45,205 nucleotides of DNA from Bryobacteraceae bacterium (GTDB lineage Bacteria; Acidobacteriota; Terriglobia; Bryobacterales; Bryobacteraceae), in the NCBI GenBank assembly GCA_025980435.1, contig JAICXK010000010.1:1-45205 (forward strand), read 5' to 3'. Both the position numbers and the translations under genes were made by a program. Position 1 is the stretch's first letter, and each line of letters begins with the position of its first letter. This document shows, one piece after another, positions 4,901-39,360 of the stretch. Under the pieces are notes generated by a model that worked only from the letters and a program-made list of their open reading frames with translations, did not search any database and had not been told where the DNA came from.

Positions 4901-5290
4901 CTCTACGGTGGTGGAGACGTTGCCGACCTGCAAAGCGAAATCGAGCTTGGCAATCTGATTCAACTGAAGCGTGATATGGGATTGGGTGGCCGTCTGGAAC
5001 CCGGCGTTCTCGACTTTCACGTCGTACGCGCCCACCAAGAGATTTGGAATCGAGTACCGGCCGTCGGAATTGGTGGTCCCGGTGTACTGCGTGCCGCGCT
5101 CGGTGTCTGTCGCGGTGACCTTTGCGCCGCCTATTGCGGCGCCGGAAGGATCCGTGACCGTGCCGTTAATGGTCGCTGTAACGGCTTGGGCGCGAATCAG
5201 CGCCGGATTACTTACAAAACCAAGTATTCCAAGAGCGAGCGCAACGCACACGCCCCATGAGCATTTTCTAAGTCCTGAAACTGGCCCCAT
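1958..5290 (-). CDS. Oar-like TonB-dependent outer-membrane receptor with carboxypeptidase-regulatory domain
   Basis: A 1,110-residue outer-membrane protein. The start is set at 5290 because AGGAGG lies 7 bases upstream and a signal peptide follows directly (MGPVSGLRKCSWGVCVALALG... to IRAQA); an earlier in-frame start at 5353 would precede the RBS. Domains in order: signal peptide (1 to about 35); a carboxypeptidase-regulatory beta-sandwich (about 36-115: GTVTDPSGAAIGGAKVTATD); a plug-like region with NFILDGMDNNQVSD (about 185-265); then a long beta-barrel with many aromatic, Asn-rich strands, ending in the outer-membrane signature KYLF. This architecture is common and greatly expanded in Acidobacteriota; family members import large substrates or handle proteins at the surface, but the ligand cannot be read from sequence. 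A near-consensus sigma-70 promoter drives it. Confidence 0.88.
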   Translation of the reverse strand: MGPVSGLRKCSWGVCVALALGILGFVSNPALIRAQAVTATINGTVTDPSGAAIGGAKVTATDTERGTQYTGTTNSDGRYSIPNLLVGAYDVKVENAGFQTATQSHITLQLNQIAKLDFALQVGNVSTTVEVSSAAPVLQTESTQLGQVIDSRTNTTLPLATRNYVQLTLLAPGSVHPNPQDFTNGQTTSGSGRPYVNGNREQANNFILDGMDNNQVSDNLVGYAPSVDAIQEFNEITQNAPAEFGNFMGGIVSTQIKSGANAFHGNLFEFFRNDVLNANSWSNNFTDSPRTKLRWNEFGGTLGGRIIRDKLFFFGDYQGQRFDTPTSTSATSVFTAKERAGDFSELLQGPKPIQLYNPHSIVNGQRVPFAGNRIPANLLDPVAQKIVNSSVYPLPTSPGLINNYLYSSRSAINGDQGDIRIDWNASDKNRVFGRYSQSLVDNPGTNNMPLFYNSFATYPTHNGVLDWVRTLSPSVVNDARVGVNYVRVNNGAAVNGTGDFPQTVGLPAIPSTILPAMNFNGGNANTVGNSDVYQLFADTVIQYEDTMTISKGVHTMHLGFQGWRDRINTFYSGNNGLAGTFTFDGRYTAGPNPFATSGGGSGIAEADFMLGLPAEIGGGVNGGTWGQRANIFGAFFQDDWHVTPSLTLNLGLRYELHTPWIEVKNRQANFGLFSGAVEIAGQDGNSRALYNSYNGITNYQPRVGIAWNAKRDTVIRAAYTLSTYLEGTGTNLRLPINPPFAHENDLPYQSLSYPGSTLSDGFQPFLSNPGNQFAGATLRVWDPNIRPAVSNQWNFTVQQQFGNATTLQVGYVGQRTTHLAVPMPYLQDQLLADGTVAKSPYLAGNPTLQNEIGQISGTATNGNQSYNALQAVLQKRLGNGLEYSVAYTYSKCMTDSSGYYGSWGGQTTPTSPYWQNLYDKKAEWGPCYYDATHVLTSYATYDLPFGRGRKFGKNMNKVVNAVVGDWQVNGILSLHTGFPLTISADDASGTNSRGSRANCIAAPHVLGEQNSPSGGYQWFDPASYAPAAPGTFGTCGVGTVRGPGLHTLDLSLAKFFDITERQRIEFRAESTNFTNTPILNSPNASLGSTLGLLQNAQGARNVQFALKYLF

Positions 5291-5297
5291 TGCTAAA

Positions 5298-5303
5298 CCT
5301 CCT
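5298..5303 (-). promoter_or_regulatory. Ribosome binding site of the Oar-like receptor gene
   Basis: The minus strand reads AGGAGG, followed by TTTAGCA and then ATG (5290-5288). It is a perfect Shine-Dalgarno at ideal spacing and decides the start of the receptor against the ATG 63 bases further upstream. Confidence 0.85.
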
Positions 5304-5344
5304 GCTAACCGGATTGCCCGCAGGCGGCAAGATACGGTCGGCGT

Positions 5345-5359
5345 ACTAATCAAGTTAGT
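5345..5359. promoter_or_regulatory. Inverted repeat at the predicted transcription start of the receptor gene
   Basis: ACTAA-TCAAG-TTAGT, two 5-base arms around a 5-base spacer. It covers the expected +1 of the minus-strand promoter at 5363-5391 (7 bases after the -10 box gives about 5356). Operators at this position usually act by repression. The DeoR-type repressor gene immediately upstream is a natural but unproven candidate to bind it. Arms of 5 bases can occur by chance. Confidence 0.35.
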
Positions 5360-5362
5360 GCG

Positions 5363-5391
5363 ATTGTAGGGGCGAATCGAAAAGGTGTCAA
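5363..5391 (-). promoter_or_regulatory. Sigma-70 promoter of the receptor gene
   Basis: On the minus strand TTGACA (5391-5386) is followed by exactly 17 bases and then TACAAT (5368-5363). The -35 box is perfect and the -10 box differs from TATAAT at one position. The predicted start near 5356 gives a leader of about 65 bases before the ATG at 5290. It is the best housekeeping promoter seen in the window. Confidence 0.8.
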
Positions 5392-5479
5392 GGAAAAAAA
5401 GAAAGCAGAAGAAAGCAAAGACAAGGAAAGTACCAGCATGTTAAGATCCCCCTCGATTCGGCCGGTGGACGCGCCGGTC

Positions 5480-6271
5480 TCAGGCGAGGACGACTTCGAT
5501 GCCGCGCGACCGCAGTTTCTCCACATCCTGTGCGGGCGCGTTTGTGTCGGTGATTACACGCTGAACGGATCGAAAATCCGAGATGAGAGATAAGCTGCGA
5601 TGGCCGAACTTGCTGGAGTCCGCAAGCACCGTAACCTGGGTGGCGGATTCCATCATGCGGCGGTTCAGTTGGGCCTCCATGATGTCGAGGGTAGTCAAAC
5701 CGACCTCGGCATCCAGCCCTACGGTACTCATGAAGCAGTGGTCGGCATGCAGGGAGTGCATCATCTGCTCGGCGTGCGGGCCGACGAACGCGCTGGAGGG
5801 ATGGCGGAGAAAGCCTCCCAGCATAACCAGCGAAAGCTTCGGCAGATCGGCAAGCTGTGCGGCGATATTCAGGGCGTGAGTAATTACCGTGATGCTGTCG
5901 GGGCAATTGCGCCGGATCTGGACCGCGAGCGCGGCCAGAGTGGACCCGGTGCAGAGAATGACGGTTTGCAGCGGCTGGATCAACTGCGCGGCAGCTTCGG
6001 CAATACGCACTTTTTCGTCGTGGTGCATGCCCTCGCGCACCTTGAGCGGATGTTCGGGCGTTGCGGTTAAGGGCCGAATTCCCCCGCCGTGCGAACGCAC
6101 CAGCACGCCGCTTTCGGAAAGCGCATCCAGATCGCCGCGCGCGGTGACCGCCGAAATGCCAAAACGCTTCACTAGTTCATCCACGGTGACGCGCCCGTTC
6201 TGGCCCAGTACGCCCAGGATCTCGCGGCGCCGTTCCTCGGCAAGAAGCCGGTTGGGCTTTGCTTTAGGCAT
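5480..6271 (-). CDS. DeoR/GlpR-family transcriptional regulator
   Basis: A 263-residue DNA-binding repressor. Residues about 10-65 form the DeoR winged helix: RRREILGVLGQNGRVTVDEL, then KRFGISAVTARGDLDALSESG and RSHGGGI. The family signature VS-ATIRRDL appears here as ISAVTARGDL. Residues about 80-255 form the DeoRC sensor domain related to phosphosugar isomerases, with KVRIAEAAAQLI, ILCTGSTLAALA, DHCFMSTVGLD and VLADSSKFGH. Such proteins usually sense a sugar phosphate and control carbohydrate genes. The effector is unknown here, and no sugar operon is adjacent; its neighbours are the receptor gene downstream and a divergent membrane-protein gene upstream. An inverted repeat in the divergent region may be its operator. 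Confidence 0.9.
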   Translation of the reverse strand: MPKAKPNRLLAEERRREILGVLGQNGRVTVDELVKRFGISAVTARGDLDALSESGVLVRSHGGGIRPLTATPEHPLKVREGMHHDEKVRIAEAAAQLIQPLQTVILCTGSTLAALAVQIRRNCPDSITVITHALNIAAQLADLPKLSLVMLGGFLRHPSSAFVGPHAEQMMHSLHADHCFMSTVGLDAEVGLTTLDIMEAQLNRRMMESATQVTVLADSSKFGHRSLSLISDFRSVQRVITDTNAPAQDVEKLRSRGIEVVLA

Positions 6272-32435: not shown

Positions 32436-32524
32436 ATGACGTGGAACTGACGTTGCGAGGAATGCAGCCGTCAACAAGTTGACGTACGTGATCACGCTAT
32501 CCTAACGCAATCAATAATTTGAAG

Positions 32525-32540
32525 TGGCTGCCAAGTTGCA
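32525..32540 (+). promoter_or_regulatory. Sigma-54 promoter upstream of flgB
   Basis: TGGCTGCCAAGTTGCA: TGGC at -24 and TTGCA at -12, with GG and GC exactly ten bases apart, close to the TGGCAC-N5-TTGC consensus. The expected start would be near 32551, so the leader before the flgB ATG at 32556 would be only about five bases, nearly leaderless. It would head the flgB-flgC-fliE-fliF-fliH-fliI-fliJ run. The activator at 37870 is its likely partner (inference). Confidence 0.7.
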
Positions 32541-32555
32541 CTCCATGCCACTGCC

Positions 32556-32897
32556 ATGCTCGACCCGATTGCCAACGAATTGGAGCGATACATGACGCTG
32601 GTGAGCGAGCGTCAGACGCTGGTCGCTTCAAATATCGCTAACGCGGATACTCCTGGGTACAAGACCAGGGATATCGATTTCCAAGCGGAATTTCAAAACG
32701 CACTGGGAAGTTTCGGCCCGATGGTGAAGGAAGTTTCCGGACTCACGTTAAAGAATGACGGAAACAATGTAGATCTGGACCGCGAGGCGCGACTTCTGGC
32801 CGACAATGCGCTGCACTTCAGCGTTGCTTCAAACCTGCTGCATTCCGAAGTCAAACGGATTCGGATGGCGATTGAGGGAGGCGGACAGTCCTCGTGA
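32556..32897 (+). CDS. flgB: Flagellar proximal rod protein FlgB
   Basis: A 113-residue rod subunit, secreted through the flagellar export gate. The first part shows the rod/hook signature ERQTLVASNIANADTPGYKT, as SERQTLVASNIANADTPGYK, followed by RDIDFQAEFQ; the C-terminal helix HFSVASNLLHSEVKRIRMAI is typical. Standard length. Its stop overlaps flgC as GTGA. Confidence 0.95.
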   Translation: MLDPIANELERYMTLVSERQTLVASNIANADTPGYKTRDIDFQAEFQNALGSFGPMVKEVSGLTLKNDGNNVDLDREARLLADNALHFSVASNLLHSEVKRIRMAIEGGGQSS

Positions 32898-33331
32898 GCT
32901 TATTTTCCACGATCTCGGTTAGCGCGTCAGGGCTCTCAGCGCAACGGGAGCGCGCGGAAGTACTGGTTGAAAACATTGCGAACGCGGACACGACGCGCAC
33001 GGCAGAAGGAGGCCCATATCGAAGGAGGGACGTCGTCTTCGAAACGCAGCGGGTCTCGTCGCCGTTTTCATCGATGATTGAATCCCAATTCGGGGATCAG
33101 GCCAATGGCGTCGGGATCAGCGATATCGCGGTAGACAATAGCGATCCGGATCGTCGCTACATGCCTGGCCATCCGGATGCGGATAAGGACGGCTATGTGT
33201 CATTTCCGCGAATCAATCCGGCCGAAGACATGGTGGATCTGCTGGGCGCATCGCGCGCTTATCAGGCAAACGTTTCCGCCATTTCCGCGATAAAAGACAT
33301 GATCCAAAAATCGATTGATCTTTTCCGATAA
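32894..33331 (+). CDS. flgC: Flagellar proximal rod protein FlgC
   Basis: A 145-residue rod subunit starting with GTG, overlapping flgB by four bases (GTGA). N-terminal FSTISVSASGLSAQRERAEV, LVENIANADTTRTAEGGPYR and the C-terminal YVSFPRINPAEDMVDLLGAS, RAYQANVSAISAIKDMIQKS are the FlgC signatures. Normal length. Confidence 0.95.
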   Translation: MSLFSTISVSASGLSAQRERAEVLVENIANADTTRTAEGGPYRRRDVVFETQRVSSPFSSMIESQFGDQANGVGISDIAVDNSDPDRRYMPGHPDADKDGYVSFPRINPAEDMVDLLGASRAYQANVSAISAIKDMIQKSIDLFR

Positions 33332-33335
33332 CCGG

Positions 33336-33635
33336 ATGCCTATACCGATTTCTTTTTCAAACCCGATCCGGCCAGTAGACCCTATTCAGGTGGCTGGGGT
33401 CCAGCAACCCGCCAGCTCGGGGTTCAAGAATATTCTCGAATCAGCTATCCGGCAGGTGAATGCGGTGAGCACGGCGGCGGATCAGAGCGTGAACACTTTC
33501 GTGTCCGGAGGCAAGCAGGAATTGCATTCAACGATTCTGGCCGTGCAGAATGCCGAACTTCAATTTGAAATGTTCCTGCAGGCGCGAAACAAGGTTGTCT
33601 CCGCATACGAAGAGATCATGCGGATGCAGGTTTGA
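33336..33635 (+). CDS. fliE: Flagellar hook-basal body protein FliE
   Basis: A 99-residue MS-ring/rod adaptor. The start is the ATG after the flgC stop (GGATG), giving MPIPISFSNPIRP; a longer reading overlaps flgC without support. The conserved C-terminal half has NAVSTAADQSVNTFVSGGKQ, ELHSTILAVQNAELQFEMFL and QARNKVVSAYEEIMRMQV, which defines FliE. It sits between flgC and fliF as in most flagellar operons. Confidence 0.95.
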   Translation: MPIPISFSNPIRPVDPIQVAGVQQPASSGFKNILESAIRQVNAVSTAADQSVNTFVSGGKQELHSTILAVQNAELQFEMFLQARNKVVSAYEEIMRMQV

Positions 33636-33651: not shown

Positions 33652-35295
33652 ATGAATCAATTCAAGAGCCTGTTTAACGCTCTTTCTATTTCTCAACGAA
33701 TCGGAATTGCGGCCGTCGCTCTTGCACTCGGGGCGGGAATCATCAGCTTTGTCCATTGGAGGCACGAAGCTGGATTCCGACCGCTGTTTACGGGGATGTC
33801 GCCGGAAGACGCAGCGGCCATTGTCCAGAAGTTAAAAGAGAGCGGAGTGGAGCATCGCCTGATGGAGAATGGAACCTCAGTTCTTGTCCCAGAGGCGAAG
33901 GTTGATGAATTGCGGCTTGAGATGGCAGGGGCCGGTCTTCCCAAAACCGGACGAATTGGATTCGAACTCTTCGATAAGACGAATCTCGGTATGACCGATT
34001 TCACCGAGCATGTGAACTATCGGCGGGCCCTTGAGGGAGAGTTGGAGCGCTCGATCCGTGTGCTGAACGGTATAGAGCAGGCGCGAGTGCACATTACATT
34101 TCCGAAGGAGTCCGTTTTCCTGGACTCGCGCGAGCCCGCGAAAGCGAGCGTGCTGGTCAGTCTCCGGCCCGGATTCCGCCTTACCCAACAAAATGTACTT
34201 GCAATAACGAACCTGGTAGCCAGCGCGGTAGAAGGCCTTTCACCCGATTTTATTTCCGTGATCGACATGCAAGGGAACCTGCTCAGCCGGCCCCACAAGG
34301 CCGCTCTGGACGATGCAGACGCTCCCGATGGCGCGCTCGATTATCGGCACCAGATCGAGAAGGACCTGGCCGCCAAGGTCGAGGCGACGCTCCAGCCTCT
34401 GCTGGGCGATGGCAGATTCCGTGTGGGTGTCTCCGCCGATTGCGATTTTACGACGAGTGAACAGACTGACGAGGTCTTTGACCCAACCAAATCCGTGATG
34501 GTGAGTTCGCAGAAATCGGAAGACATGTCTGGCGCGGCGCAACCGGGTGGTGTTCCCGGGACGCCTTCCAACTTGCCGCGATCGACTGCGGTTCGGCCGG
34601 CCTCGGCAGGCTCGACTACGTCTCGAAGGACCGAGAACGTGACGTACCAGACAACGCGGACGGTAAGGCAGGTAAAGACGCCCCGGGGTGCTATCAAGCG
34701 GATTTCTGCATCATTATTGCTTGATCAGGACTTTCGTTGGGAAGGGAAGGGCGGGAAAGCCAAGCGAGTGGATGTCCCGCCCAGTCCCGAGAAGTTGAAA
34801 GCCATTCATGACATCGTGGCGGGTGTGCTTGGGCTAGATCCTGCACGGGGGGATCAGTTGGTGATCGAGAGCCTTCCTTTTGAGCAGACACGCGAAATGG
34901 ATGAGCCCGCGCCTTCCTTGCCGAAGCCTTCGAGTCCGACGCCCGGCATAAACGAGTTGATCCGAAATCGGCCAATAGTGTTAGGCGGCGCTGCCGTTTT
35001 GTTGATACTTGGCGCGCTGTTAGGCGTTCTCCTCCGACGCAAATCCAAATCGAAGCATTCGGTTCAGCAAGCGCAGGCAATAGAGAAGGGGCAATCGCGC
35101 GCGGGTCTGGAATCGGGTAAATCCGCGGAAGCGCCTAAGATAGGAGGCGAGGAAACCAAACAAAAGCTTCCGTTGCCCGCGGCGCCGAACAAAGTGGACA
35201 TATTGAGGCAGAACCTTCGCGAGACTGTGAATCGAGATCCGGCACTCGCGGCAAGCGTTATTCGCGGGTGGCTGGAGGAAGATGCGAATCGATGA
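33652..35295 (+). CDS. fliF: Flagellar MS-ring protein FliF
   Basis: A 547-residue protein with two membrane spans (about 18-36 and 440-460). Between them lie the YscJ-type ring-building domains: FRPLFTGMSPEDAAAIVQKL, EMAGAGLPKTGRIGFELFDK, then MTDFTEHVNYRRALEGELER and VHITFPKES, with a low-complexity Ser/Pro/Thr segment about 290-330. After the second span, a basic cytoplasmic tail ends in RQNLRETVNRDPALAASVIR-GWLEED, the typical FliG-binding end. The tail is normal, so no FliG fusion is present. The stop is followed directly, as ATGA, by an orphan ATG, not by fliG. Confidence 0.95.
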   Translation: MNQFKSLFNALSISQRIGIAAVALALGAGIISFVHWRHEAGFRPLFTGMSPEDAAAIVQKLKESGVEHRLMENGTSVLVPEAKVDELRLEMAGAGLPKTGRIGFELFDKTNLGMTDFTEHVNYRRALEGELERSIRVLNGIEQARVHITFPKESVFLDSREPAKASVLVSLRPGFRLTQQNVLAITNLVASAVEGLSPDFISVIDMQGNLLSRPHKAALDDADAPDGALDYRHQIEKDLAAKVEATLQPLLGDGRFRVGVSADCDFTTSEQTDEVFDPTKSVMVSSQKSEDMSGAAQPGGVPGTPSNLPRSTAVRPASAGSTTSRRTENVTYQTTRTVRQVKTPRGAIKRISASLLLDQDFRWEGKGGKAKRVDVPPSPEKLKAIHDIVAGVLGLDPARGDQLVIESLPFEQTREMDEPAPSLPKPSSPTPGINELIRNRPIVLGGAAVLLILGALLGVLLRRKSKSKHSVQQAQAIEKGQSRAGLESGKSAEAPKIGGEETKQKLPLPAAPNKVDILRQNLRETVNRDPALAASVIRGWLEEDANR

Positions 35296-35333
35296 TTCAC
35301 GTGGCTAAGATCCAGGTGCATTATGGCGTGTAG
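35292..35333 (+). other. Orphan start codon and 13-codon reading frame where fliG is expected
   Basis: An ATG overlaps the fliF stop as ATGA, the usual coupled start for the next flagellar gene, but the frame ends after 13 codons (MIHVAKIQVHYGV) at TAG 35331-35333. fliG lies here in most flagellar operons. The peptide is too short to compare with FliG. It may be a scar of a deleted fliG, a leader peptide for fliH, or chance. Confidence 0.3.
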
Positions 35334-35982
35334 GATCGCCGGTCCGTCACAAGCCGCTAGCAGCATGATGTGGGGCAGCGTCGAGTCTTTGGGGGATACC
35401 AAGGCCGGCGCGGTTTCGCATGGAAGCGCGCGAGCCGGCGACACGGATTTGGCAGAGAGACTCGCGGAAATCGAAGAACTGCGGCACGAAGAAATTGTGC
35501 AGGCGCGCCGGTCCGGATTTGACGAAGGGGTCAGGAAAGCAAAAGACGAGGCGTCCGCCGAGATCAGAGCTTCCGGAGAAAGGCTTGCACGGAATCTAAA
35601 GGAACTGGCGGCTCTAAAGCAGAGGATTCGGAATGAAGCAGAAGGCGAGGTCGTGCGGCTTTCGCTTGCAATTGCACGCCGCATCCTTCATCGCGAGCTG
35701 ACAGTCGATGCGGAGTCCATTGAGGGTGTCGTGCATGCTGCACTACGAACACTGGAACATCGTGACGTGCTGCGCGTGCGGGTCGCTCCCGATGCTATTG
35801 GCGTTATGCGGTCTGTTCTGGAGCGGGCCGCTGGAGGGCATGGAATCGAGGTTACCTCTGACCACCGGATGGGAGTTGGCGACATCGTTTTTGAAACAGC
35901 CATGGGCGAACTGGACGCGTCCATCGATACGCAGCTTCAAGAGATACAACGAGGTTTCGCCGACCGCCTGGGGGCAGGATGA
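35323..35982 (+). CDS. fliH: Flagellar export ATPase regulator FliH
   Basis: A 219-residue stator-like partner of the export ATPase FliI. A central coiled coil with many A/E/R residues (EIEELRHEEIVQARRSGFDE, then KAKDEASAEIRASGERLARN) is followed by the conserved C-terminal domain: VVRLSLAIARRILHRELTVD, HAALRTLEHRDVLRVRVAPD, EVTSDHRMGVGDIVFETAMG and ELDASIDTQLQEI. The start is taken as ATG 35323; ATG at 35365 is possible. It overlaps fliI as ATGA. Confidence 0.9.
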   Translation: MACRIAGPSQAASSMMWGSVESLGDTKAGAVSHGSARAGDTDLAERLAEIEELRHEEIVQARRSGFDEGVRKAKDEASAEIRASGERLARNLKELAALKQRIRNEAEGEVVRLSLAIARRILHRELTVDAESIEGVVHAALRTLEHRDVLRVRVAPDAIGVMRSVLERAAGGHGIEVTSDHRMGVGDIVFETAMGELDASIDTQLQEIQRGFADRLGAG

Positions 35983-37304
35983 CGGCGTCCGAAAGGATTG
36001 ACCTCAGTCCCTATGTCGCCGATCTCAAGGGGCTCGAGCTGCTGAGATGGCGCGGGGTCGTAACAAATGTGACGGGGTTCGTGATCGAATCGCAGGGACC
36101 GTCGTCCCCGGTAGGAGGGTTCTGCGAGATCCATACGTCCAGCGGCAAAATTGTTCGAACCCAGGTTGCAGGTTTCCGCAACGGACGAATTCTTTCGATG
36201 CCGCTGGAAGAAGTAGACGGCCTCGAGGCTGGGGATGCTATATACGCCCGATCTGAAGATTCGAGTGTTTCGGTGGGGCCCGGTTTGCTGGGGCGTGTTC
36301 TTGACGGTTTTGGGCGGTTTATCGACGAGGGACCACCGATGGAGACAGTTGCCCGGTACAACCTGTTCGCTGCTCCTCCCGGCCCCCTTGAGCGAGAGCA
36401 CATAGATACACCCCTCGTAACTGGAATCCGAGCGATAGACACCCTGCTTCCGTGCGGCCTCGGGCAGAGGATTGGCATCTTCGGAGGAAGCGGGGTCGGA
36501 AAGAGCACTTTGTTGGGGACAATGTCGGCTCAGAGTTCGGCCGATGTTACCGTGATCGCTCTTATCGGCGAGCGCAATCGGGAAGTACGTGGATTTCTGG
36601 AGCATGAGTTGGGACCGGAAGGGCGCAAACGGTCGGTAGTAGTCGTAGCGACGTCTGATCGTCCCGCGCCTTTGCGAGTGCGAGCTTGCTTCGTGGCGCT
36701 CGCGGTGGCGGAATACTTCCGGGATGAGGGGAAAAATGTTCTGTTGGTTATGGACTCTGTTACGAGATTGGCAATGGCGCAGCGAGAAATCGGACTCGCC
36801 GCCGGGGAACCACCCAGCCAGAAGGGATATACTCCGTCGGTCTTCGGCATTCTTCCCAAGATATTTGAACGAGCGGGCGCCTTTCAGCGCGGGAGCATTA
36901 CCGGGTTCTTTACGGTATTAGTCGAGGGAGATGACATGAACGAGCCAATCGCGGACGCGGCGCGCAGCATTCTGGACGGCCATATCGTTCTCTCGCGCCT
37001 GCTTGGCTCCTCAGGACACTATCCCGCTATCGATGTGCTCTCCTCCATATCACGAGTGGCATCCCACGTTGCGAGCCCTGAGCAACTTAAGGCGGCGTCT
37101 AAAGTGCGCGAAGCCCTTTCGTGCTATCAGGCGGCAGAAGACCTGATTTCCCTGGGCGCCTACGTCTCCGGGTCGAATCCGAAACTGGATGCGAGTATCC
37201 GGCTGCGGGACCGAACACTTTCCTTTCTGCGTCAAGGCCCGCATGAAAAAGCGGAATTGAGTGAAAGCCTGGCCGCTCTGTCGGAAATCTCCGCCGCACT
37301 TTGA
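35979..37304 (+). CDS. fliI: Flagellum-specific ATP synthase FliI
   Basis: A 441-residue AAA-like F1-type ATPase that energises the flagellar type III export. Walker A GGSGVGKST is at 169-177; Walker B follows NVLLVMDSVTRLAMAQREIG, then the FliI/YscN signature with LAAGEPPSQKGYTPSVFGIL and GSITGFFTVLVEGDDMNEPI, AARSILDGHIVLSR. N- and C-terminal domains are normal for FliI. Starts as ATGA over the fliH stop. Confidence 0.96.
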   Translation: MTASERIDLSPYVADLKGLELLRWRGVVTNVTGFVIESQGPSSPVGGFCEIHTSSGKIVRTQVAGFRNGRILSMPLEEVDGLEAGDAIYARSEDSSVSVGPGLLGRVLDGFGRFIDEGPPMETVARYNLFAAPPGPLEREHIDTPLVTGIRAIDTLLPCGLGQRIGIFGGSGVGKSTLLGTMSAQSSADVTVIALIGERNREVRGFLEHELGPEGRKRSVVVVATSDRPAPLRVRACFVALAVAEYFRDEGKNVLLVMDSVTRLAMAQREIGLAAGEPPSQKGYTPSVFGILPKIFERAGAFQRGSITGFFTVLVEGDDMNEPIADAARSILDGHIVLSRLLGSSGHYPAIDVLSSISRVASHVASPEQLKAASKVREALSCYQAAEDLISLGAYVSGSNPKLDASIRLRDRTLSFLRQGPHEKAELSESLAALSEISAAL

Positions 37305-37311
37305 ACCTCCT

Positions 37312-37743
37312 GTGAAGAATTTCCGATTTCGTTTAGATTCAGTGCTCCGCCTCAGGAAACAGCAGGTTGATGCAGAGCGGATGAGGCTGCAGCAGATATT
37401 TGGAGAGAGAGAACAGTTGACGAGATGCCTGGCATCCGCAGGGCGGGAACGCGCGGAAGCGGCGGAGTTTGTTAGAGATCTCTCCGCAGGAACTCGAGAC
37501 CTACGAGCCCTTGCCTCTTACATCATTGGGTCCCAGATGCAGGTTGCAACAGTGCAGTCAGCCCTTCGAGAGCTCGACCGAACTCTAGCGGAACAAAAGG
37601 CGCGGGTACTCCGAGCCGAGCAGAATGAGAAGCTGCTGACGACGTTGCGTGAAAAGCGAATTCGGGAGTGGACAGCGGGGTTGAACCAGCAAATCGAGAC
37701 GGATGCTCATGAGTGTTGGATCGCATCCTGGAATAAGGACTAG
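37312..37743 (+). CDS. fliJ: Flagellar export chaperone FliJ
   Basis: A 143-residue coiled-coil protein, from GTG at 37312 eight bases after the fliI stop: VKNFRFRLDSVLRLRKQQVD, the usual FliJ N-terminus (F-F-L--VL--R). A longer reading inside fliI is a shadow. Heptad-like helices continue to near the C-terminus (LRELDRTLAEQKARVLRAEQ). FliJ links FliI to the export gate. Identity rests on the N-terminal motif, coiled coil and position. The operon appears to end here. Confidence 0.85.
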   Translation: MKNFRFRLDSVLRLRKQQVDAERMRLQQIFGEREQLTRCLASAGRERAEAAEFVRDLSAGTRDLRALASYIIGSQMQVATVQSALRELDRTLAEQKARVLRAEQNEKLLTTLREKRIREWTAGLNQQIETDAHECWIASWNKD

Positions 37744-37869: not shown

Positions 37870-39360
37870 ATGAGATCGTTCGATTCGTTCACGCGTGATG
37901 AGGCTCAATCAGTTGCGCAAGCCGAATCCTCGGAGGACTCCAAGAAGCCGGAACCGGCCTGGAGGCAGTATCTCATTGGAGTGAGCCGGGCCGTGCTGGA
38001 TGTTTGCGAGGTGATCGAGCTTATTGCTTCCAAGCGCTGCACGGTTCTCATAAGCGGAGAGACAGGGACAGGGAAAGAGGTTGTCGCGCGTGCGCTACAC
38101 GCGGCCAGTGATCGAGCAGCCGTTCCGATGGTTGCGGTCAACTGCACGGCGCTGCCATCAAATCTCGCCGAAACGGAGTTATTTGGCCACTCGAAGGGGG
38201 CCTTCACTGGAGCACACACCGGACGCATAGGGCGATTCGAGCAGGCCCACCGGGGGACTATCTTTCTGGATGAAATTGGCGACTTACCATTGGATGTTCA
38301 GCCGAAACTGCTCCGTGTTCTACAGGAACATGAACTACAACGGATTGGCAGCTCTGAAACCGTTCGTGTGGACGTGAGGGTGATTGCGGCTTCTAACGTA
38401 GACTTGGAAGCAGCAGTCCGGGGAAAACGGTTCCGGGAAGATCTCTATTATCGGCTGAATGTCGTTCCAATCCATCTGCCTCCCCTGCGCGAGCGAAGCG
38501 AGGACATTCCACTCCTTCTCGATCACTTTTTGACGAAGGTTCAGGCTACCGAAGGCGGCCATCTTAAGCGAATCTCGGCAGAAGCAGCGCAATTTCTGCA
38601 AACGATGGACTGGCCGGGAAACGTCCGGCAGCTCGAGCATTCGGTTCAAATGGCGGTGGCGCTCAGTGGAGACCGCACTGTGCTGGTTGCAGACGATTTC
38701 AAAACCCGGTTGTCTCCGGGTTCTCTACACATAGAGCGGAGAGTACGTACTTCTGTAACAATCCCACAGGGAGGAATAGACTTCGATGAAGTCGTCGGAA
38801 ACTTCGAGCGATCTTTGCTTCATCAGGCGCTTGCCGCCAGCGGCGGCAACAAGGCCCGCGCCGCCGACCTCCTTCGCATTAAACGGACTACTTTGCTCGC
38901 CAAACTGAAGAGCTTCGAGGAGCGAGAGAATGGGACTTCCGAAGCGGTTCTCAGCACCCCGGCACCGGCAAAAGGCGGGCTGCCCCCGGCGGCGCTGGTG
39001 GTTGAAAAAGATTCCTCCGTGCTGAGACTCATTTCGAAAACCCTCGAGGCCGAAGGATATCGGATCTTGCAGACCGAAACGATACCGGCTGCGCTGGAAC
39101 TACTTCGCTGTTGGAAGGGGCAGATACGCTTGCTTGTGTTAGACCTGAACGAAAGGGAGTGGCCAGGCTTATCTGCGAATGAGATAACGCCTGATATGCC
39201 GATACTAGAGATCTCAAACGGAAACAGAGCACCGTTTGAACTGCACCAACACCGTAAAAGAGTTCTCTTATCGCCGTTTTCACCTGAGCAACTGAGGAAT
39301 GCGTTGGCCGAATTGAAAACGAGCGATGCCTCTATTATCGCTGCCGAATGCTGCGCTTGA
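37870..39360 (+). CDS. Sigma-54 activator with inverted domain order: AAA+, Fis-type HTH, C-terminal pseudo-receiver
   Basis: A 496-residue bacterial enhancer-binding protein. Residues about 33-270 form the sigma-54 AAA+ domain: Walker A GETGTGKE (63-70), GAFTGA loop (110-115) that touches sigma-54, Walker B IFLDEIGD (131-138), DWPGNVRQLEH (247-257). A Fis-type helix-turn-helix follows (about 305-349, NKARAADLLRIKRTTLLAKL). Then, at 374-482, comes a receiver-like domain: ALVVEKDSSVLRLISKTLEA, LLVLDLN, PILEIS, LLSPFSPEQL. The acceptor-type Asp425 is kept, but the acidic pocket reads EKD (379-381) and the conserved Lys is Ser468. No N-terminal receiver exists. It probably drives the flagellar sigma-54 promoters, such as flgB's. 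Confidence 0.88.
   Translation: MRSFDSFTRDEAQSVAQAESSEDSKKPEPAWRQYLIGVSRAVLDVCEVIELIASKRCTVLISGETGTGKEVVARALHAASDRAAVPMVAVNCTALPSNLAETELFGHSKGAFTGAHTGRIGRFEQAHRGTIFLDEIGDLPLDVQPKLLRVLQEHELQRIGSSETVRVDVRVIAASNVDLEAAVRGKRFREDLYYRLNVVPIHLPPLRERSEDIPLLLDHFLTKVQATEGGHLKRISAEAAQFLQTMDWPGNVRQLEHSVQMAVALSGDRTVLVADDFKTRLSPGSLHIERRVRTSVTIPQGGIDFDEVVGNFERSLLHQALAASGGNKARAADLLRIKRTTLLAKLKSFEERENGTSEAVLSTPAPAKGGLPPAALVVEKDSSVLRLISKTLEAEGYRILQTETIPAALELLRCWKGQIRLLVLDLNEREWPGLSANEITPDMPILEISNGNRAPFELHQHRKRVLLSPFSPEQLRNALAELKTSDASIIAAECCA

Follow-up and report, generated by a model that had tools for sequence, protein, structure and literature searches.

A FleQ-like sigma-54 activator with a predicted pseudo-receiver at its C-terminus behind a flagellar gene cluster of a Bryobacteraceae bacterium

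In activators of the NtrC type the receiver domain stands in front of the AAA+ domain. Then, what could a receiver do at the opposite end? A stretch of 45,205 nucleotides from a Bryobacteraceae bacterium of the phylum Acidobacteriota (GenBank assembly GCA_025980435.1, contig JAICXK010000010.1, positions 1 to 45,205 of the forward strand), hereafter the window, carries directly behind the flagellar gene fliJ a gene for a sigma-54 activator of 496 aa (37870-39360, + strand), in which the AAA+ domain comes first, a Fis-type helix-turn-helix (HTH) second and a degenerate receiver last. Based on comparisons of sequences and structural models, we suggest, with a probability of about 0.6, that this regulator may be a FleQ-like activator working independently of phosphorylation, perhaps driven by its abundance, and that its tail may be a modulatory, dispensable interaction module. 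FleQ-like activators and pseudo-receivers are both known kinds, which are joined here in a new variant. The finding is real, and it is more interesting as a series of orthologs than as a single odd protein.

The regulator gene, supported by Pfam and orthologs, forms one open reading frame (ORF) that runs uninterrupted through 496 codons. The AAA+ sigma-54 interaction domain covers residues 35-202 (37972-38475; Pfam Sigma54_activat, E 7.6e-69) and is followed by the AAA+ lid (residues 207-282, 38488-38715), the Fis-type HTH_8 (residues 311-348, 38800-38913), a linker that varies in the alignments (residues 349-373, 38914-38988), the C-terminal receiver-like tail (residues 374-482, 38989-39315) and a terminal Cys-Ala (39352-39357), all on the + strand. 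Walker A (63-70), the GAFTGA loop (110-115) and Walker B FLDE (132-135) are all intact; that is, both the NtrC-type AAA+ domain with GAFTGA and the Fis HTH are present by Pfam and by residue check. Only 34 residues precede the AAA+ domain, and there is no room for an N-terminal receiver because the stop codon of fliJ lies 126 bp upstream of the regulator gene. Neither the N-terminal receiver of NtrC-type proteins nor the degenerate one of FleQ-type proteins is present in the window protein. The order AAA+-HTH-receiver had been read from the letters alone in the initial annotation, and it is borne out by the Pfam domains and by five orthologs of the same genus. The search proposed there, for this order beside flagellar genes elsewhere in Acidobacteriota, returned these five orthologs, each behind fliJ. 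A frameshift or mis-assembly fusing two separate genes is therefore unlikely, since the same ORF order recurs at the same locus in five further genomes. A linker does precede the receiver, but the Ala/Pro character ascribed to it is loosely conserved in the alignment.

The tail matches Pfam Response_reg below threshold, with 19.9 bits against a cut-off of 30.2 (E 0.0095 with the complete protein as query, 8.7e-4 with just the tail). Its AlphaFold2 model, computed from a six-row alignment of the window tail and those of the five tailed orthologs, has a mean pLDDT (predicted local distance difference test) of 79.4 and a pTM (predicted template modelling score) of 0.74. The modelled order is b1-a1-b2-a2-b3-b4-b5-a5, that is, five strands in receiver order with helices a3 and a4 unformed. 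Among the best 50 Foldseek matches in the PDB, 49 are receivers or receiver-bearing proteins, judged by their titles or known identities (best E 1.1e-5; TM score by query length 0.55-0.69), and the one at rank 38 is a Rossmann-fold protein. Receivers were also matched, weakly, by phmmer in the PDB (best E 0.0072). The receiver-like fold suspected at the outset is thus recovered by the model and its structural matches.

The active site of the tail is degenerate. As first described, the acidic pocket reads E379-K380-D381, and S468-P469-F470 has Ser at the position of the conserved Lys, while S449 and D425 are present. Asp425, taken originally as a kept acceptor, does occur in the window protein, but the acceptor column of the alignment holds S, G, S, A and S in the five tailed orthologs L138, L139, L140, L141 and L142 (L numbers denote the collected loci), and the Lys column R, T, R, C and R. 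Asp425 is a leftover or chance feature of the window protein, because all five tailed orthologs carry other residues there. According to Bourret et al. (2025; PMC12632262), a pseudo-receiver has lost at least one of five active-site residues. By sequence and model, the tail is a pseudo-receiver under this definition: it has the receiver fold, the losses at K380 and S468 and, in L138-L142, the loss of the Asp as well. It differs from the pseudo-receivers as defined there by its place C-terminal of AAA+-HTH and by the a3 and a4 missing in the model.

Could the window receiver still control the activator through an unusual kind of phosphorylation on Asp425? The presence of D425 and S449 speaks for this, and so counts against a phosphorylation-independent activator. 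However, Lys380 occupies the second acidic position, Ser468 replaces the conserved Lys, the model lacks a3 and a4, the Asp is kept in none of the five tailed orthologs, and no histidine kinase was found among the 10 window proteins scanned. We regard a working switch as very improbable, and the earlier judgement that normal phosphorylation is unlikely is supported by the degenerate active site.

An ORF with AAA+-HTH-tail is present in 6 of 17 genomes of the genus, own genome counted. With a profile of HTH plus tail, a full-length match was obtained in 2 of the 150 genomes of the family set, which includes 4 of the genus, and both belong to the genus; in the other 146, any match listed spans either the HTH or the receiver segment but not both. 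Within the phylum set of 297, the HTH-plus-tail profile matched in full length in the own genome alone. These scans used a profile of the window-type tail and scored, in each genome, just the 20 or 10 best candidates at E 1e-15, and they would miss unrelated AAA+-HTH-receiver proteins elsewhere. An NtrC-type Walker A motif occurs in 118 distinct ORFs of the loci L042-L100 and L138-L217; six of these ORFs extend more than 345 residues past the motif, and all six belong to the group of the window regulator. In the literature, searched mostly outside subscription journals, the titles and abstract openings listed gave no sigma-54 activator with the order AAA+-HTH-receiver.

The orthologs differ in where the receivers stand. 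In the tree of the AAA+-HTH core, 12 orthologs, 11 from genomes of the genus (window included) and L144 from a further genome, form one group (support 97/95) within a group of 17 (100/100), and a wider tree agrees on both groups. A rear receiver alone is found in the window, L138, L140 and L142, front and rear receivers together in L139 and L141, a front receiver alone in L144, L145 and L148, and neither in L143, L146 and L147. In total, six are tailed and six tail-less, five have a degenerate N-terminal receiver and two have both. The front domain of L141 is modelled as a complete receiver (pLDDT 90.5), whose structure matches include NtrX, FleR and NtrC1, and the acceptor Asp is absent from all five front domains in an alignment read by eye. 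The relatives L150-L153 also have a front domain, by sequence. The ancestral regulator probably had a degenerate N-terminal receiver too.

A signal or a partner acting on the tail, as proposed at the outset, may control the regulator, and the picture has become wider: since 6 of the 12 orthologs have no tail, the tail is not a switch that every member of the group needs. It might even be vestigial, the decaying remnant of a captured domain that regulates nothing, on a bare AAA+-HTH activator controlled by abundance. For example, three of the six tail-less orthologs have no receiver at either end, the tails share 27-34% identity with that of the window while the AAA+-HTH cores of the window and the tail-less L143 reach 71%, and a3 and a4 are missing in the window tail model. 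However, the frame has been kept open in six diverged tailed proteins, and Trp415, Ile419, Pro469 and Phe470 are among the invariant tail positions in the alignments, which is unlike drift. We consider pure decay rather unlikely, and favor a dispensable tail that may still modulate a phosphorylation-independent activator.

The tailed L138 pairs with the tail-less L143 in the core tree (support 97/97), and a constraint of the six tailed proteins to one clade is rejected (p-AU, approximately unbiased test, 0.00044), which fits early gain of the tail and repeated loss. Parsimony gives five changes for the tail and four for the front receiver. One gain followed by repeated loss may be the simplest account, because the tail sequences are alike, with repeated gain as the alternative. 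Against this stands the fact that the well-supported branches force just two changes each for the tail and the front receiver. The Cys-Ala end is common to 10 of 17 orthologs (window, L138, L140-L143, L148 and L150-L152). Because tail-less proteins (L143, L148 and L150-L152) are among them, the tail seems to be inserted between the HTH and an older C-terminal end. The Ala codon of this end varies, while Cys is TGC in 9 of 10; as a guess, the end could be a degron or provide a redox Cys.

A broader reading may be drawn from these forms, in which the control domain of a FleQ-type regulator shifted from the N- to the C-terminus in one Bryobacterales-type clade of Acidobacteriota. The ancestor would have carried a degenerate receiver at each end. 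The rear one would stem from a hybrid kinase and have been inserted ahead of the conserved Cys-Ala, and front-only, rear-only, double and bare forms would have arisen from this ancestor at one locus with kept promoter and operator. The rear-only forms would use the pseudo-receiver beside the HTH for control of DNA binding or oligomerisation. We offer this only tentatively, and in its entirety it is more doubtful than a modulatory tail as such.

As for the source of the tail, a hybrid-histidine-kinase-type receiver appears most likely from profile comparisons, which is a lead and not proof because the pool of 168 receiver domains in the collected loci (copies included) was partly collected with the tail itself and is biased. 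Apart from orthologs, the tail profile scores highest with the C-terminal receivers in L076 (72.9 bits) and L075 (70.4 bits), both in hybrid kinases with HisKA and HATPase_c. Two results point elsewhere: the stand-alone receivers L019 (51.3 bits) and L017 (47.5 bits) come next, and the best NCBIfam match of the tail is GlrR of the NtrC type (E 7.5e-4), with CckA second (0.0027). Further C-terminal receivers of longer ORFs follow L019 and L017, and N-terminal receivers of ORFs as long as a sigma-54 activator first appear at 39.2 bits (L198). The a2-b3 segment is longer in the tails than in two NtrC-type receivers of the own genome; as a mark of hybrid kinases it is weak, since the stand-alone L017 and L019 share the longer segment. 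With CckA-type receivers the tail shares profile similarity, the second NCBIfam rank, the C-terminal position and a poorly formed a4; in the CckA receiver a4 gives way to a disordered b4-b5 linker (PMC9981736), which the tail model resembles. Kinase domains, the phosphorylation site and, by reading, a FATGUY-type motif are absent from the window protein. Two other origins were considered. Duplication of the N-terminal pseudo-receiver is unsupported (hhalign probability 8.7%, E 0.0038). In L144 and L145 a stand-alone receiver gene lies behind the regulator, an adjacency that suggested a fusion; this finds no backing, as that receiver is outside the best 30 matches of the profile ranking, which is not a full test. 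This stand-alone response regulator, Rcp1-like by reading, lies from 8648 onward in L144 and from 10183 onward in L145.

The closest PDB match of the window protein is FleQ, with the AAA+ domain at E 4e-83 and the HTH as a second stretch. With FleQ/FlrA it shares, as judged from sequence, similarity of AAA+ and HTH, the type of sigma-54 activator at flagellar genes and a FleQ-box-like site; five of the 12 orthologs also have a degenerate N-terminal receiver as FleQ/FlrA do, whereas the window protein has none and carries a C-terminal one. From NtrC-type response regulators, with which AAA+ and Fis HTH are shared, it differs by a receiver that is degenerate and at the opposite end. Then, could the activator be controlled by cyclic di-GMP (c-di-GMP) at the AAA+ domain as FleQ is, with the tail incidental? 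Six FleQ residues were checked, among them N186, which we take to be one of those around c-di-GMP. The equivalents of FleQ R185 and R151 are kept as Arg (R74 and R40) in the window protein, and several orthologs carry Arg at the position of R144. However, Gln33, Ala75, His219 and Lys223 replace R144, N186, E330 and R334, that is, 4 of the 6 checked residues. The c-di-GMP contacts named for FleQ are R144, R185, R334, R151 and E330 (PMC10723142). The FleQ-type c-di-GMP site is mostly not kept, and such control, although FleQ is the nearest solved protein, is improbable. In the own genome (L222 857-2795; flhF called by family and fliA by reading) flhF is followed directly by fliA without flhG/fleN in between, and so it is in the four relatives L149-L152, whereas P. 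putida has fleN at this place, according to PMC6424431. Six ParA/MinD-like matches occur elsewhere in the own genome, among which a FleN/FlhG partner may be present.

The genes in front of the regulator are all on the + strand. They are flgB (32556-32897; Pfam Flg_bb_rod), flgC (32894-33331), fliE (33315-33635), fliF (33652-35295), fliH (35323-35982), fliI (35979-37304) and fliJ (37261-37743). Pfam scans identified flgC, fliE and fliH, while fliF and fliI were named by reading the sequence and have similar ORFs at other loci; fliJ has a weak Pfam match below cut-off (E 0.013) together with synteny. From flgB to fliJ the genes overlap or are separated by short gaps, which points to a single transcript, and the cluster is probably transcribed as one unit with the regulator as last gene, although a further promoter would fit into the 126 bp between fliJ and the regulator. 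Among 13 loci of the genus with fliJ, the regulator follows fliJ in 11 (window, L101-L106, L129 and L131-L133), with the upstream order flgC-fliE-fliF-fliH-fliI-fliJ as far as the contigs reach (those of L101 and L132 end early). Two observations count against the regulator as the activator of this cluster: L130 and L134 have a promoter-like site before flgB and yet no regulator after fliJ, and the ortholog L144 lies away from flagellar genes, with no flagellar match in 18.6 kb (L144 1-7233). Its close relative L145/L129 has flagellar genes upstream of the regulator. In the distant relatives L149, L150, L151 and L152 the regulator stands immediately before flhA-flhF-fliA-flgK-flgL.

Two side observations concern other flagellar genes. 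The gene fliG is absent between fliF and fliH in the window (35295-35323) and is located on a different contig of the own genome (L135 3245-4285), while in L106 it is in place (5071-6093). In addition, the genomes G004, G009 and G010 (loci L136, L137, L120 and L123) carry a diverged FliI-type ATPase with 48% identity to the window FliI, in G009 beside the usual one; its FliH- and FliF-like neighbors in L136 and L137 possibly belong to another flagellar or secretion set.

Upstream of flgB, the window contains a sigma-54-type -24/-12 element, TGGCTGCCAAGTTGCA (32525-32540, + strand), and 55 bp upstream of it the palindrome GTCAACAAGTTGAC (32470-32483, + strand), an exact GTCAA-N4-TTGAC that fits the published FleQ box. 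Of 14 loci searched, 11 had flgB, and in all of them a GG-N10-GC element starts 27-37 bp before the gene. Scored against the sigma-54 consensus, the element reaches at least 8.5 of 12 in nine loci, with a chance of 2.7% per locus, and 8 in L142 and 7.5 in L133. RpoN is encoded in the own genome. The palindrome is exact in the window, L142 and L129 and occurs with no more than one mismatch in 7 of the 11 upstream regions, compared with a background of 2.1%. In five of these seven (window, L106, L131, L140 and L142) it starts 52-56 bp before the sigma-54-type site. PMC6120874 quotes the FleQ box consensus of P. aeruginosa as GTCaNTAAAtTGAC and that of P. putida as GTCAaAAAAtTGAC, and the box of L142, GTCAAAAAATTGAC, equals the proposed P. 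putida consensus in every letter. By sequence, a FleQ-box-like operator is thus present at a sigma-54-type flagellar promoter.

A number of results weaken this picture of promoter and operator. The window element scores 9 of 12, whole-window scans with N5 spacing found no excess of sigma-54-type sites, and no such site stands out before fliC, fliD or motA (motA in the window only). The palindrome lies 109 bp (L130) and 119 bp (L129) before the element in the two remaining loci, and none within one mismatch occurs in 4 of the 11 upstream regions. The word GTCAA was first picked by counting words in the same upstream regions, so the enrichment there is partly circular. The only exact palindrome of the own assembly is that at 32470-32483, and the control pattern, read backwards, has three matches per strand, so one is no excess; with one mismatch allowed, the window has three matches where 1.11 are expected, and 9 of 100 shuffles reach three. 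According to PMC6120874, chromatin immunoprecipitation sequencing (ChIP-seq) yielded no robust FleQ consensus and the consensus is disputed. The sole independent support of the palindrome as a putative operator is its fit to this disputed FleQ box.

Put together, the preferred reading of a phosphorylation-independent activator with a dispensable tail would work as follows. The HTH of the FleQ-like enhancer-binding protein would bind the FleQ-box-like palindrome, which lies about 55 bp before the promoter. AAA+ protomers would assemble on the DNA, and their GAFTGA loops would remodel the closed complex of RNA polymerase and sigma-54, using ATP. The sigma-54 promoter of the flgB-flgC-fliE-fliF-fliH-fliI-fliJ cluster would be activated in this way, and the regulator, probably the last gene of the cluster, would form a positive loop. 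The activator would not depend on phosphorylation of a receiver. The tail would have been acquired from outside and placed between the HTH and the old C-terminus, its phosphorylation site being lost afterwards, and it may now serve as a modulatory and dispensable module for protein interaction or dimerisation beside the HTH, perhaps assuming some of the functions that the lost N-terminal pseudo-receiver had.

The on/off switching of bacterial pseudo-receivers is called a mystery in the 2025 review (PMC12632262). The orthologs described here, nearly all at one locus, have a pseudo-receiver ahead of the AAA+-HTH core, after it, in both places or in neither, and constitute a natural test series, so that the effect of a pseudo-receiver could be read by swapping alleles at one promoter. 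For the flagellar hierarchy in these Acidobacteriota, we propose that a sigma-54 promoter with a FleQ-like box may serve the basal-body cluster and its own regulator.
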